The translations under genes and the position numbers were made by a program. A stretch of DNA of 36,846 nucleotides. Origin: Clostridia bacterium (GTDB lineage Bacteria; Bacillota; Clostridia; Christensenellales; QALW01). Positions 6,756 to 11,468 of the stretch are shown piece by piece; position 1 is the first letter of the stretch; each line of letters starts with the position of its first letter. The notes beneath the pieces were generated by a model. The model searched no databases and had not been told where the DNA came from. It saw only the letters and a list, made by a program, of their open reading frames with translations. The stretch covers positions 1 through 36,846 of the forward strand of contig JAFVVO010000018.1 of the NCBI GenBank assembly GCA_017502165.1. Reading direction: 5' to 3'.

Positions 6756-7289
6756 ATGGAACTTAAGAAGAAAGACAAAAATTCGCGTGAAGTATTACAA
6801 CAGCAGTTTAATAATGCAAGAAGCAACCTGTTATTGATGCTTGCATTTACCGTGCTTAACATTGTGCTCCTCGTTTTAGATACAGGAACAATGTTCCTTT
6901 TCTCTGCAACCGTACCTTATTATGCAGTATTGTTTGCTATGATAGAGCCTGCGATAATGTATCATTGTATTGCAATAGCCGCAATAAGCATTATTGCATA
7001 TGTACTTTGCTGGATTTTCAGTAAAAAGCAATTTGGCTGGATGATAGCCGCACTGGTTTTGTTTGTGATAGATACCATTGCTATGCTTGACGTTTATATT
7101 ACCGCAGAAGACGCATCGGGAATTCTTGACTTGGTTATTCACGCTTGGGTGCTTTGGTACCTCGTAATAGGTGTAATAAGCGGAAGAAAGCTTAAAAAGC
7201 TTCCCCAAGAGGTTATTGACGGTGAAGCACAGATAGTTGAAGATCAGGCAAATACGCAAACGGAAAACAAGCCAAACTCCGATAGTTGA
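6756..7289 (+). CDS. Small four-helix membrane protein, unknown function
   Basis: A 177-aa protein I do not recognise. A charged N-terminus (ELKKKDKNSRE) is followed by about four hydrophobic helices (roughly 24-46, 56-76, 80-103, 108-128 with a fifth weak one to 157), then a polar tail rich in E, Q, N and T. It has its own promoter and AAAGGAG site. The tail is odd: its last nine or so codons overlap, in another frame, a decayed copy of the end of the upstream epimerase gene. The C-terminus was therefore probably gained by reading into foreign DNA. It likely sits in the cytoplasmic membrane. Confidence 0.75.
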   Translation: MELKKKDKNSREVLQQQFNNARSNLLLMLAFTVLNIVLLVLDTGTMFLFSATVPYYAVLFAMIEPAIMYHCIAIAAISIIAYVLCWIFSKKQFGWMIAALVLFVIDTIAMLDVYITAEDASGILDLVIHAWVLWYLVIGVISGRKLKKLPQEVIDGEAQIVEDQANTQTENKPNSDS

Positions 7290-7329
7290 TATTACAAGAG
7301 CAAAAGAGTATCTTGATAAGTTGATATAA
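7261..7329 (+). pseudogene. Fossil of the 3' end of a sugar isomerase/epimerase gene
   Basis: In this frame the DNA reads RKTSQTPIVDITRAKEYLD then KLI and stop. The intact epimerase at 5868-6644 ends RETSDTPMVDITRAKDYLD then ELMK and stop. By hand count 16 of 22 residues and about 54 of 69 bases agree. There is no start codon or upstream coding part, so this is a truncated remnant. The 3' end of the membrane-protein gene overprints it in a different frame. Its stop abuts the next terminator, which may be the original terminator of the lost gene. Confidence 0.85.
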
Positions 7330-7368
7330 ACAAACAGCGACAGAAATTCTGTCGCTGTTTGTTTTTTT
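7329..7368. terminator. Long perfect terminator hairpin
   Basis: A 15-bp perfect stem (7329-7343 with 7349-7363) with a 5-base loop, followed by a T run on the plus strand. It ends plus-strand transcription. The stop codon of the convergent 53-aa gene lies in the T run, so it may also act for that strand. Confidence 0.9.
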
Positions 7369-7528
7369 ATCCACGAACGATTTTACTAACTACGTAATCT
7401 GGATATTTTGCCATAAATCGCATCAATGCAATTGATTCACTAGTAGCATGAACCATAGTGGTACCGCGGTTATGATAAACAGTCCACATTACAGCATTGC
7501 CTTCGTATGATGTAAATCCGTTATACAT
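7367..7528 (-). CDS. 53-aa small protein, last gene of the XRE-controlled cassette
   Basis: A short frame, MYNGFTSYEGNAVMWTVYHN followed by a basic C-terminus ending KIVRG. GGAGG lies 7 bases before the ATG, which is a strong ribosome site and the main reason to accept it. It is rich in aromatic residues (W15, several Tyr and Phe) and has no signal peptide or transmembrane helix. I do not recognise a family. It is the promoter-distal member of the four-gene minus-strand cassette and ends at the T run of the long terminator. Its start region follows a fossil of a CBM9-like gene. Confidence 0.65.
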   Translation of the reverse strand: MYNGFTSYEGNAVMWTVYHNRGTTMVHATSESIALMRFMAKYPDYVVSKIVRG

Positions 7529-7578
7529 ATATATTCCTCCTTTATTTTAAGCAACTAAATTGCTATATTAACTAAGTT

Positions 7579-7617
7579 TTTAAGGTTGGGATAGAATCTA
7601 CGGATAAATTCAAAGGG
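7579..7617 (-). pseudogene. Fossil fragment of a CBM9-like gene
   Basis: Read on the minus strand this gives PFEFIRRFYPNLK, matching PFEFIRRFYPDFK in the intact CBM9-like gene (11013-11051). The block 7588-7617 is identical to 11022-11051 at 28 of 30 bases, far beyond chance. No start, no flanking homology and no functional frame remain. It lies between the 64-aa and 53-aa genes of the cassette. Confidence 0.85.
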
Positions 7618-7624
7618 TTTTGTT

Positions 7625-7819
7625 TTATCGCAATAAAGTTAAAACAATATCGCCATAACCTATCATTCGACCATAAAAATCAAATGTCTTATCGAGAGAC
7701 TTATCATAATAGCCAAGTCTTCGACCATAAAAATCGCTGAGCCATTTTTTATTACCTGACCATTCTATAGCACCAATGATTTTACCTGTGTAATCTTTAA
7801 TAACCTCTTTTGCCATCAT
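7625..7819 (-). CDS. Small beta-repeat protein (5-fold beta-flower type)
   Basis: A 64-aa protein made of three diverged copies of a glycine-turn strand unit: GKIIGAIEW, YGRRLGYYDKSL, YGRMIGYGD. This resembles the 5-fold beta-flower small-protein family as I remember it, which has the same DFYGRxLGYxD units. Function is not known to me; such folds are often oligomer-forming or binding modules. Two ATG codons (7817-7819 and 7814-7816) share one GGAGC site; the second gives better spacing. It is the third gene of the minus-strand cassette, 27 bases after the Cys-rich gene. Confidence 0.7.
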   Translation of the reverse strand: MMAKEVIKDYTGKIIGAIEWSGNKKWLSDFYGRRLGYYDKSLDKTFDFYGRMIGYGDIVLTLLR

Positions 7820-7846
7820 ATATGCTCCTAGTTAATAGAATTTTTA

Positions 7847-8059
7847 TTAACTGAGTGCGCTCCACTTTTGAAATTTAGGGCAATAAGTTCCAGAACAAGC
7901 AAAATGTCCGGCACTACTACTGGTGAACACGCCAGCATAGCACTTGCCTTGATCGTTCTGAGAATTTGTTTGAGCGGCTTTTGCATAATTGATGGTTCTG
8001 TTACCACCCCAGTTTGCACAAGTTGCACAGCATTTGGTGTTTTGTGATGCAGTCCACAT
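7847..8059 (-). CDS. 70-aa cysteine-rich small protein
   Basis: A 70-aa protein starting MWTASQNTKCCATCANWGGN. Cysteines occur as CCxxC near the N-terminus, then KCY, FxC and YCPKF with a conserved-looking W near the end. The arrangement suggests a small metal-binding or disulfide-stabilised domain. I recall similar uncharacterised proteins in gut Firmicutes, often with CCATCAxWGG, but no function. AAGGTGG precedes the ATG. An overlapping frame (7828-8073) is less Cys-patterned and was rejected. Second gene of the cassette, 34 bases after the 341-aa gene. Confidence 0.7.
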   Translation of the reverse strand: MWTASQNTKCCATCANWGGNRTINYAKAAQTNSQNDQGKCYAGVFTSSSAGHFACSGTYCPKFQKWSALS

Positions 8060-8093
8060 AAGAGATTCACCACCTTAATATAAAATATAAATT

Positions 8094-9119
8094 TTACTTA
8101 TACAAGAGAACTTTCTTGAATTCTTCCGTAGCAGTTTCAATAGTTTCTTTCGAGGAATCTATTAAAGTTCGGGAAGCTTCTTTCAGTTCGTCTTCGCTAC
8201 CGAAATATTCTAAAGTCATAAACTTGTTCCAAAGGGTGTCGCCGTATTCGCCAACTGCTTCACCGCCAAAACCTATGCGCTTTAATTTGTTGTTTTCCAT
8301 AAAGTCGGTAACATTCAACTCTTTATCTTTAACTATTAAAATAAAGGTAAAAAGAGTGGCGAAATCCAATTCACTAAGAGAAAAAACAGCAGAATCTTTT
8401 GCAAGTTCGGCAAACAAATCTACCAATTGGGGATAAATAGTTAAAATAAAAATGAAAAAAGCGGCATGGTGCTGATTTTCAATTTCTATGTTTTCAATTT
8501 CATTTAATTTTGAAACAAAATCTCTTAAAGGTTTATATTTTTCAGAAATACCGTATCGTAAGCACCAACCTGCAAGCACAGGATATTTTGATAAGTTTGG
8601 ATAAAACTCTTCAGTAAATTTGGTAAAAATTTGTATGGCGAGTTCATAAGAATTGCGATCAATTATACTTTCGATTGTTTCTACAGGAAGCGTACTGTAA
8701 GAACTTGCTAAGTCGTCAATCTGCTCTTGGCGGGTGCTTGAATCAAAGGAAATGACCCCGTTTAATGACTTACCATAATCTATAAACCTAAGATTATCTG
8801 TTTGCTCGATTGCTATATCTTTGGCAAACATTTTCTTTTTTGCTTCACAAGACTGTTCTTTGGGACAGGAACAACAAAATTCTTGAGAAAAGAGAAAAGC
8901 ACCGCATTTTTGACCATCTAAGATTGTGCAGTTGTAATCATTAGGAATTTCAACTTCTTCTGTTTCTTCTTCAACTTCTTCTTCGCTAATGTTTGACGTA
9001 ATTTCGTCGGAGGAATTGTTTGAGAGATCCTTTCTAGAGTCGGTTGTTTCGGCTGCTTTGAAAAAACGATCAAATAAATTCTTCAATAGTTTAATCAAAG
9101 ATTCGAAAAGTGAATTCAT
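8094..9119 (-). CDS. 341-aa protein of unknown function, first gene of XRE-controlled cassette
   Basis: I do not recognise this protein. Residues 1-22 form an amphipathic, Phe/Leu/Lys-rich segment (LFESLIKLLKNLFDRFFK). A strongly acidic Ser/Glu linker runs to about 60. A cysteine cluster follows (CTILDGQKCG, then FCCSCPKEQSCE), which could bind metal. The rest, about 100-341, is helical and rich in acidic and aromatic residues, with no transmembrane helix long enough to be sure of. A GAAAGGGG site precedes the ATG. It is transcribed from a strong promoter flanked by two operators, divergent from an XRE regulator. It may attach peripherally to the membrane through its N-terminal helix; that is inference. 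Confidence 0.8.
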   Translation of the reverse strand: MNSLFESLIKLLKNLFDRFFKAAETTDSRKDLSNNSSDEITSNISEEEVEEETEEVEIPNDYNCTILDGQKCGAFLFSQEFCCSCPKEQSCEAKKKMFAKDIAIEQTDNLRFIDYGKSLNGVISFDSSTRQEQIDDLASSYSTLPVETIESIIDRNSYELAIQIFTKFTEEFYPNLSKYPVLAGWCLRYGISEKYKPLRDFVSKLNEIENIEIENQHHAAFFIFILTIYPQLVDLFAELAKDSAVFSLSELDFATLFTFILIVKDKELNVTDFMENNKLKRIGFGGEAVGEYGDTLWNKFMTLEYFGSEDELKEASRTLIDSSKETIETATEEFKKVLLYK

Positions 9120-9153
9120 TTTTTTATACCCCTTTCAAAAATATAATAATAAC

Positions 9154-9180
9154 AATATGACATTCACTGAATGTCATATT
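9154..9180. promoter_or_regulatory. Operator 1: 27-bp perfect palindrome
   Basis: Half-site AATATGACATTCA (9154-9166), one central base, and its exact complement (9168-9180). The inner 19 bp (9158-9176) match operator 2 except at three positions. It lies just downstream of the -10 element of the cassette promoter. Confidence 0.8.
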
Positions 9181-9187
9181 TTACTTG

Positions 9188-9216
9188 ATTATAGCATAAA
9201 ATATTTCTATTGACAA
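9188..9216 (-). promoter_or_regulatory. Strong SigA promoter of the small-protein cassette
   Basis: On the minus strand TTGTCA (9211-9216), a 17-base spacer ending TGC (extended -10), then TATAAT (9188-9193). The -35 lies inside operator 2, and operator 1 starts 8 bases past the -10. Confidence 0.8.
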
Positions 9217-9229
9217 GCACTAAATGTCA
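9211..9229. promoter_or_regulatory. Operator 2: second copy of the palindrome
   Basis: TGACAAGCACTAAATGTCA, identical to the core of operator 1 at 16 of 19 positions. Centres are 53 bp apart, about five helical turns, so two repressor dimers could sit on the same DNA face. It overlaps the -35 of the cassette promoter and lies just before the XRE gene. Confidence 0.75.
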
Positions 9230-9245
9230 AAAATGGGGGATTTTT

Positions 9246-9485
9246 ATGTTTATTAACAAGACAAATGATGGATTAAACAATGTTTGCGGGAAAAATATTG
9301 CCCGATTGAGAATGGGTATGAAAATATCACAGCGACAGTTGGCAGATAAAATGCAGCTTGAAGGAATAGATATAGATAAAAATGCGATACAAAGAATAGA
9401 GTGTGGGAAAAGATTTGTAACAGATATTGAATTAATAGCGTTTCAAAAACTCTTTGGAGTTGCGTTTGAAGAACTGTTAAAATAA
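9246..9485 (+). CDS. XRE-family helix-turn-helix regulator
   Basis: A 79-aa Cro/CI-type DNA-binding protein. The HTH spans about 15-77: IARLRMGMKISQRQLADKM, then NAIQRIECGKRFVTDIELIA and the closing helix LFGVAFEELLK. It consists of the DNA-binding domain alone with no sensor domain. I chose the ATG at 9246 with GGGGGA upstream; a longer frame from 9210 would start inside operator 2. It is divergent from the 341-aa gene and close to two copies of a palindrome, so it is the likely repressor of the cassette and of itself. What releases it is unknown. Confidence 0.85.
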   Translation: MFINKTNDGLNNVCGKNIARLRMGMKISQRQLADKMQLEGIDIDKNAIQRIECGKRFVTDIELIAFQKLFGVAFEELLK

Positions 9486-9502
9486 GTTGAAAAGTTAATA
9501 TG

Positions 9503-9531
9503 TTGCATTCTTTCGAGTTTGAAGATATAAT
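9503..9531 (+). promoter_or_regulatory. SigA promoter for the MFS transporter
   Basis: TTGCAT (9503-9508), 17-base spacer, TATAAT (9526-9531), 38 bases upstream of the ATG. Confidence 0.75.
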
Positions 9532-9569
9532 TGTGGTAGATAGATTGTTTATATAATAAGGAAAGTAAG

Positions 9570-10805
9570 ATGGAAAACAAATATAAAATTACAAAAGTAG
9601 CTTGCTATATGACTAACGTTTCAATGGCAATGACGTCTTGTATGCCGCCGCTTTTGTTTTTGACATTTAATAAAGCCTATAATATTTCATTTACGCTTTT
9701 AGGCTTGCTGGCGGTTGCCTGCTTTGGTATCCAGCTTTTTATTGATCTTGTTTTCACCTTTTTTGCCAAGCATTTTAATTTGCATCTTACCTTAAAAACT
9801 ATGCCGCTTTTCAGCGCCTTCGGACTGTTGTTCTATGCCCTTATGCCCCTGTTGTTTCCCCAAAACGCTTACGCCTTTTTGTTTGTGGGAACGCTTATGT
9901 TTTCCGTTTCAGCAGGACTTGCTGAGGTGTTAATAAGCCCCTTGGTTGCGGCAATTCCTTCGGATAATCCTGAGAAGGAAATGAGCAAGCTTCACGCAGT
10001 TTATGCTTGGGGCGTTGTGGCGGTAGTTATTATCAGCAGTATTTTGCTTCAGCTTTTAGGCGGAGAAAATTGGTTTTTACTGCCTTGCATCTGGTCACTT
10101 TTGCCCATTGCAACCTTTATAGCCTTTTCCTTTGCCGCGCTTCCGTGCATTTCAGTAGGAAACGGCGAAAGAGGAATAAAATTCCCCAAGGGAATATTTT
10201 TGTTGTTTTTGTGCATTTTCTTGGGCGGCGCCGCAGAAAATTCTATGACGCAGTGGTGCTCAAGCTTTCTTGAAAAGTCCGCAGGGCTTCCTAAAACAGT
10301 AGGCGACGTTTTCGGTCTTGCGCTTTTTGCTCTGCTTTTAGGTTTAGGCAGAACTCTTTACGGAAAATTCGGTAAAAATATATTAAACACACTGCTTGCG
10401 TGTATGACCTCAAGCTTTGTCTGCTACGTTGTTGCGGCAATTTCGCCAAGCCCGATTGTTTCCCTTATTGCCTGCGTTTTAACCGGCTTTTGCGTTTCGA
10501 TGCTTTGGCCCGGCACGCTTATTTTAATGGAAGAAAAATACGCTTCCGTCGGTGTTGCCGCTTACGCCTTAATGGCGGCAGGGGGCGACGCGGGCTGTTC
10601 TGTGGGACCGCAGATGGTAGGTGCCGTAACGGACGCAGTTTTGTCCTTTGAAGGCGCAACGGAGCTTGCCCAGACCTTTGGGTTAACTGCCGACCAAATG
10701 AGTATGCGCGTTGCAATTTTATGCGCTTCGCTGTTTTCGCTTATAGGAATTTTCCTTTTAATAGGAATAAAACACTTCTTTAAGAATAAAGAAAAAACAA
10801 GATAA
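9570..10805 (+). CDS. MFS transporter, sugar-porter-like
   Basis: A 411-aa protein with about 12 hydrophobic helices and a short central cytoplasmic loop (GNGERGIKFPKG) between the two halves, as expected for the major facilitator superfamily. Segments such as CMPPLLFLTF, LHAVYAWG and TGFCVSMLWPGT resemble fucose/nucleoside-permease-like members, so a sugar substrate and proton symport are reasonable but not proved. It has its own promoter. It faces the ceramidase/NagA/CBM9 operon across a shared terminator and may bring in a sugar released by that pathway; this link rests on position only. Confidence 0.88.
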   Translation: MENKYKITKVACYMTNVSMAMTSCMPPLLFLTFNKAYNISFTLLGLLAVACFGIQLFIDLVFTFFAKHFNLHLTLKTMPLFSAFGLLFYALMPLLFPQNAYAFLFVGTLMFSVSAGLAEVLISPLVAAIPSDNPEKEMSKLHAVYAWGVVAVVIISSILLQLLGGENWFLLPCIWSLLPIATFIAFSFAALPCISVGNGERGIKFPKGIFLLFLCIFLGGAAENSMTQWCSSFLEKSAGLPKTVGDVFGLALFALLLGLGRTLYGKFGKNILNTLLACMTSSFVCYVVAAISPSPIVSLIACVLTGFCVSMLWPGTLILMEEKYASVGVAAYALMAAGGDAGCSVGPQMVGAVTDAVLSFEGATELAQTFGLTADQMSMRVAILCASLFSLIGIFLLIGIKHFFKNKEKTR

Positions 10806-10865: not shown

Positions 10866-11468
10866 TTATTCAACAAAATTCATTTTACCGAACATTGCGG
10901 GCTGATGGAAATCAAGCTCCGTGGTAATGGGGTTCCAAGAAAGGTAATGAGGGGGATTTGAAAAGTCTGCGCACTTATAGCAGTTTGCGTAGAAGGATTT
11001 TCCTGCCTCTGCCTTAAAATCGGGATAGAATCTACGGATGAACTCAAAGGGAACAGTGTAATAAATTTCCCAGCCGCCGTCAAAGAATTTAATGTCGGGG
11101 GAGAAAATTGCTTCAGGCTCGTCGGGAACGATACGAAGGGCATCAGCTCTTCCGGTAGCAATTCCCAAATACAAGCAACCGTTTGAGTTAAACTCGATGT
11201 TAACGTATCTGGGATCCTCTGCAACGGGGCGGAAGAAAAATTCAAGACAGCTATCTTCGCAGGGCATACCTAAGGGACCCTTTTCTACTGCACGGATAAC
11301 GGCTTCCTTAGTTTCAAGGTGAACTAAAAATCCGTCGTCGTTGTAACAGATTTGTGCGTTTGCAGTAATTTCGGCAGGAGTTTGCTCGTAGGGCGTGTCA
11401 ATGTTAAGCTTATCTATTTTGCTCCAGTCAGGCGCGCCGCAAACCTTTTTAACGTTATATTCTTTCAT
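10866..11468 (-). CDS. CBM9-like carbohydrate-binding protein
   Basis: A 200-aa protein of the CBM9-like domain group. Typical segments are EDSCLEFFFRP, RYVNIEFNSNGCLYLG and the closing HYLSWNPITTELDFHQP...FGKMNF. No signal peptide is seen, so it seems cytoplasmic, unlike classical xylanase-linked CBM9; intracellular members are common as single-domain proteins near sugar genes. Ligand unknown. Its start overlaps the NagA-like stop by one base (TAATG). Last gene of the three-gene operon. A 39-base piece of a close paralogue survives as a fossil at 7579-7617. Confidence 0.8.
   Translation of the reverse strand: MKEYNVKKVCGAPDWSKIDKLNIDTPYEQTPAEITANAQICYNDDGFLVHLETKEAVIRAVEKGPLGMPCEDSCLEFFFRPVAEDPRYVNIEFNSNGCLYLGIATGRADALRIVPDEPEAIFSPDIKFFDGGWEIYYTVPFEFIRRFYPDFKAEAGKSFYANCYKCADFSNPPHYLSWNPITTELDFHQPAMFGKMNFVE

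Follow-up and report, generated by a model that had tools for sequence, protein, structure and literature searches.

Gene content and setting of the cassette

Four minus-strand ORFs, encoding proteins of 341, 70, 64, and 53 aa, occupy positions 7,367–9,119 of the window (the whole stretch of DNA analysed, 36,846 nucleotides of a Clostridia bacterium contig) and face a plus-strand gene at 9,246–9,485 that encodes a 79-aa XRE repressor, which confirms the four ORFs at the places given by the first-pass annotation. The 341-aa gene (8,094–9,119), whose coding bias is clear (z 7.8), is followed by the genes of a CxxC protein of 70 aa (7,847–8,059), a beta-flower-like protein of 64 aa (7,625–7,819), and a basic protein of 53 aa (7,367–7,528). 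Each of the four is preceded by a purine-rich ribosome-binding site; relatives could be aligned for the 70-aa protein, and the 64-aa protein has relatives within the taxonomic order. Coding bias is marginal for the three small genes (z 1.8–2.0; repressor gene, z 1.2), and for this reason the orphan 53-aa gene was accepted chiefly on the strength of its AAGGAGG site and its position. At the 3′ end of the cassette, a 17-pair inverted repeat (7,328–7,364) scores as a terminator on the plus strand, with the tail TTTTATCCAC. The spacing of the genes, the single promoter described below, and this repeat suggest that the four genes are co-transcribed.

The cassette interval is AT-rich (G+C fraction 0.338 versus 0.42 for the window) and its flanks are metabolic, with a sugar-catabolism-type gene group on one side and an MFS transporter on the other. 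AT-richness and the orphan genes support the accessory location proposed earlier, and the cassette is probably a small accessory unit that was acquired horizontally. Since the three genomes of the same family have only 34–36% identical MFS relatives and share no flank with the cassette region, no empty site could be read. An Rfam scan gave no match within 7,000–9,700. A 30-bp direct repeat (93%) is present at 7,588–7,617 and 11,022–11,051, possibly a rearrangement scar: one copy falls in the gap between the 64- and 53-aa genes and resembles CBM9 coding sequence (PFEFIRRFYP) that lies 3.4 kb off.

Repressor, promoter, and operators

The repressor is a single-domain XRE protein that matches PF01381 (HTH_3) above the cut-off (E 4.7e-5; 23.8 bits against a gathering score of 23). 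Its most likely start is the ATG at 9,246, rather than the TTG at 9,210 to which the ORF extends, because this start has a GGGGG site and lets the protein align without gaps to a homologue of 79 aa. The promoter facing the four genes (9,188–9,216, minus strand; TTGTCA and TATAAT, 17 bp apart) has an extended −10, agrees with the consensus at 11 of 12 positions, and is the best-scoring of the region. Promoter-like sites overall show no excess over shuffled sequences (10 observed versus 9.4), and the argument for a control region is therefore carried by the operators.

This promoter sits between two copies of one putative 19-bp operator, whose centres are 53 bp apart. O1 (9,154–9,180), directly downstream of the −10 element, is a perfect 13-bp inverted repeat with a 1-bp spacer, whereas O2 (9,211–9,229) reads TGACATTTAGTGCTTGTCA on the minus strand and its final six bases form the −35 element. 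In a pattern search of the entire 1.83-Mb genome, allowing up to two mismatches, the exact 19-bp pattern was found in only two places, O1 and O2; all remaining matches carry two mismatches, and a backward-read control yields a similar number. The expected number of matches in the window at two mismatches is 0.23. The operator pair and its genome-wide uniqueness constitute direct sequence evidence for a putative dedicated local repressor, and the earlier proposal of a small repressor for these genes gains support, as both exact operators of the genome lie at this promoter.

The four products and their relatives

The 341-aa protein had been described as acidic, with an N-terminal amphipathic helix and a Cys cluster, and all these features were borne out. 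Its pI is 4.5, and the helix (residues 4–25) has the highest hydrophobic moment in the protein (0.71; shuffling p = 0.0004); an acidic linker, a Cys cluster at about residues 64–91, and a C-terminal part predicted with low confidence to be mostly helical complete the architecture. An AF2 model made without an alignment was unusable (pLDDT 36.6). No relative was found in Pfam, PHROGs, NCBIfam, PADLOC, PDB sequences, IMG/VR, or phage and plasmid records, nor in a pattern search of 84,980 GTDB genomes, which detects close relatives only, and none was accepted among 248 genomes of the order. Weak matches there (best E 0.0012) were taken as chance and fall in or beside unrelated genes (MgtE-, ScpB-, and histidine-kinase-like, named by inspection). 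We also rejected a phage match, H1 (E 0.5), which overlaps a purT-like frame, and PDB matches to designed repeat proteins, in which no single stretch passes. As it has no relative, the role of this main protein is without homology support. The second orphan is the 53-aa protein, with no relative in any collection searched.

The 70-aa protein (pI 9.1) belongs to an unnamed small family with the motif Cx2Cx2W...C...Cx2[WFY]. An alignment of 12 sequences contains this motif, with Cx2C, W, and two further Cys invariant, and the protein is likely to bind metal. An XRE gene stands opposite the CxxC gene in three loci. In G235, it is divergent from genes for a 221-aa protein and the CxxC protein, and TGTACA repeats flank TTGACA/TATAAT; in G498, it is divergent from the CxxC gene, and its product is 38% identical to the cassette repressor; in G549, it faces the CxxC gene together with small genes, within an island that also encodes a resolvase and a type I R subunit. 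Two members of the family lie beside DUF262/GmrSD enzymes, one adjoining GmrSD/HEC-06 (G171) and one on a Sphaerotilus plasmid (MoxR – VWA – CxxC – 129 aa – DUF262, with Sir2). Another two are neighbours of WYL genes, one also of dynamin-like GTPases and the other of a PD-(D/E)XK nuclease: in G622, WYL is followed by two dynamin-like GTPases with LeoBC/LeoA matches and by CxxC at the cluster end, and the faecal scaffold MT838960 has the order CxxC – WYL – PDDEXK_4. The plasmid and MT838960, both defence-linked, come from phage and plasmid collections and are thus biased samples; in the genome searches only, a dedicated XRE or a neighbour of defence type is present at five of nine CxxC loci. 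Elsewhere (G286, G540, and G006), CxxC genes are alone or near feoAB, without XRE or defence company, and the UDG-like neighbour in G380 scores under the gathering cut-off.

Some of these loci have features of their own. MT838960 (locus L098, 153–2,512) is a GenBank "Bacteriophage sp." from human faeces and looks less like a phage than like a bacterial defence locus, and the Sphaerotilus CxxC gene (locus L101, 7,001–7,177) is missing from the annotated gene table. Similar-looking HTH-like proteins of about 156 aa are encoded near two CxxC loci (L068, 13,478–13,951; L078, 16,440–16,910); a Pfam scan of one of the two gave no match.

That none of the four proteins has a known function was correctly stated before, but the 64-aa protein (pI 9.3) probably falls in a named fold class, being beta-flower-like (Tubby clan). 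Beta-flowers were assigned to the same clan as Tubby-like proteins, which are lipid-linked (PMC10584680); a literature search for a part of Tubby-like proteins in defence against phage found none. The AF2 model of the 64-aa protein (pLDDT 94.5) has six strands and a short C-terminal helix, to be compared with the small symmetric barrel of beta-hairpins, often surrounding a C-terminal helix, that characterises the class. Against 1zxu, Foldseek gave a partial match with a TMq of 0.59 and an rmsd of 1.5 but an E value of 1.1, and VIA gave a Z of 4.2 (rmsd 2.6, 59 aligned) that is tied with unrelated folds in a list with no standout. A viral structure library gave a single match under E 0.001, to a Caudovirales protein that is uncharacterised (E 5.6e-4), which we took as a shared small fold only. 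The likeness to the beta-flower families PF21784 and PF21785 (clan CL0395; PMC10584680) lies in a repeat motif, a confident beta-hairpin model, and the relatives, 12 of which were found in 247 other genomes of the order: each of the two profiles is matched by three members out of the ten aligned (best E values for the two, 0.00053 and 0.008), whereas the 64-aa protein of the window itself matches neither profile.

Among the beta-flower relatives, the one in G241 lies with a 277-aa gene divergent from an XRE gene, and that in G145 is the last gene of an operon with AAA/M41, WYL, and PD-T4-3 (E 1.5e-62). Others are found near a UvrD/GajB-like helicase (G130) or before a cut AAA gene (G435); most otherwise sit among housekeeping genes, many alone. 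A short FtsH-like AAA(/M41) gene is close to 3 of 15 beta-flower loci (L025, L029, and L065).

Recurrence of the layout and proposed function

The first-pass annotation had looked to the same four genes occurring together in other genomes. The full set has no second occurrence in any collection searched, the 341- and 53-aa proteins being without relatives, which by the refuting condition named in that annotation counts in part against its reading, but relatives of the 70- and 64-aa proteins do recur by XRE or WYL genes and defence genes. The divergent XRE layout is found elsewhere with unrelated payload genes (G235, G498, G549, and G241), the recurring unit being a dedicated repressor, a variable payload, and a small accessory protein. 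The cassette hence belongs to a loosely defined architecture and does not represent a conserved system of four genes. Of six XRE-like genes detected in the 245 kb surrounding 23 focal genes with a profile built from these same XREs, four lie within 700 bp of a focal gene; this proximity is the sole count, and the defence-type company of the CxxC and beta-flower relatives is a lead, not a statistic. Shared regulation or common islands, rather than a common function, may explain such company.

Several known systems resemble the cassette in part. WYL repressors, BrxR among them, are found together with defence systems, and the loci they control have, like the cassette, a repressor of their own, operators made of inverted repeats, and accessory genes (PMC9122601); two CxxC relatives and one beta-flower relative adjoin WYL genes. 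Here, in contrast, regulation would fall to a 79-aa XRE that lacks a sensor domain, and the cassette contains no known defence gene. In CapK/CapS-controlled immune operons (PMC13373217), a dedicated repressor keeps an adjacent immune operon silent and two CapS sites are described, an arrangement that the predicted sites of the cassette would parallel; in contrast, the cassette has no kinase partner and has an XRE instead of a STAS-like repressor. The WYL – dynamin – dynamin cluster that ends in a CxxC relative recalls the LeoABC dynamin-like loci (PMC4159319), whereas the cassette has no dynamin-like gene.

Because of the recurring unit and of the regulators and nucleases around the relatives, we consider an inducible defence or stress cassette, self-repressed and membrane-directed, to be the best reading, with about an even chance of being right, and the sequence context suggests a role in defence. 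Against such a role, the surroundings of the cassette showed no defence gene, and its matches in the PADLOC defence library are limited to the repressor HTH. A self-repressed cassette for envelope or metal stress, induced by membrane or redox damage and with CxxC and beta-flower proteins binding metal and lipid, would dispense with phage defence altogether. It would suit the amphipathic helix of the 341-aa protein, the putative Tubby-clan fold of the 64-aa protein, the CxxC relative divergent from feoAB in G286, and the many beta-flower relatives alone among housekeeping genes; we nevertheless hold it to be unlikely, given that the CxxC family is repeatedly found beside restriction, WYL, and dynamin loci.

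The earlier suggestion of a defence, phage-derived, or stress-triggered module is supported for the defence or stress setting, through the relatives beside XRE, WYL, and defence genes, and finds no support for a phage origin. A prophage or mobile-element relic, with the XRE as a leftover phage repressor and early-region or moron genes as its payload, is improbable: the window has neither a tRNA nor an apparent integrase or phage structural gene (ORFs judged by inspection), the four products have no relative of significant E value in PHROG, IMG/VR, or phage records, and metabolic genes flank both sides, even if the repressor HTH resembles phage repressor families, the DNA is AT-rich, and the divergent repressor/early-promoter layout with two operators is phage-like. 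The small proteins under a dedicated HTH regulator, whose HTH is weakly similar to HipB/MqsA-type antitoxin models, could also point to a toxin–antitoxin or bacteriocin-like unit in which a small toxic protein is neutralised by the repressor or another small protein. These similarities are far under the curated cut-offs, however, repressor and payload are divergent instead of forming one operon, and no toxin family was matched in Pfam, NCBIfam, or PADLOC, so that we regard this as very improbable; like a prophage remnant, it is less likely than a defence or stress cassette. Hardly credible is a chance neighbourhood of four unrelated small genes that form no functional unit, since they share a strand, a promoter with two dedicated operators, a ribosome-binding site at each gene, and an inverted repeat at the end; in its favour, the set is known from one genome only, two of its genes are orphans, and the small ORFs show only marginal coding bias.

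For the inducible defence or stress cassette, we propose that the XRE protein sits as a dimer on O1 and O2, whose separation amounts to about five helical turns, and that the promoter between them would be blocked, with O2 covering the −35 element and O1 the start region. Loss of the repressor, or its inactivation by a signal such as phage infection or DNA or envelope stress, would allow the four genes to be made together. The 341-aa protein might then reach the inner membrane via its amphipathic helix, where the basic beta-flower protein may likewise act, as the lipid-linked Tubby-like proteins of its clan suggest, the CxxC protein would serve as a small metal-binding accessory, and the cell would be protected against phage or a related stress.

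More tentatively, the cassette could represent a new class of inducible defence cassettes in Clostridia, each under a single repressor, whose effectors vary, being membrane-directed or of unknown kind, and are combined with shared small accessories (metal-binding CxxC and beta-flower proteins) of which restriction, dynamin, and nuclease systems make use as well. If the association is true, the exact operators would open the switch to direct testing, and two tiny and easily missed families would mark inducible defence cassettes that are absent from the defence library used.
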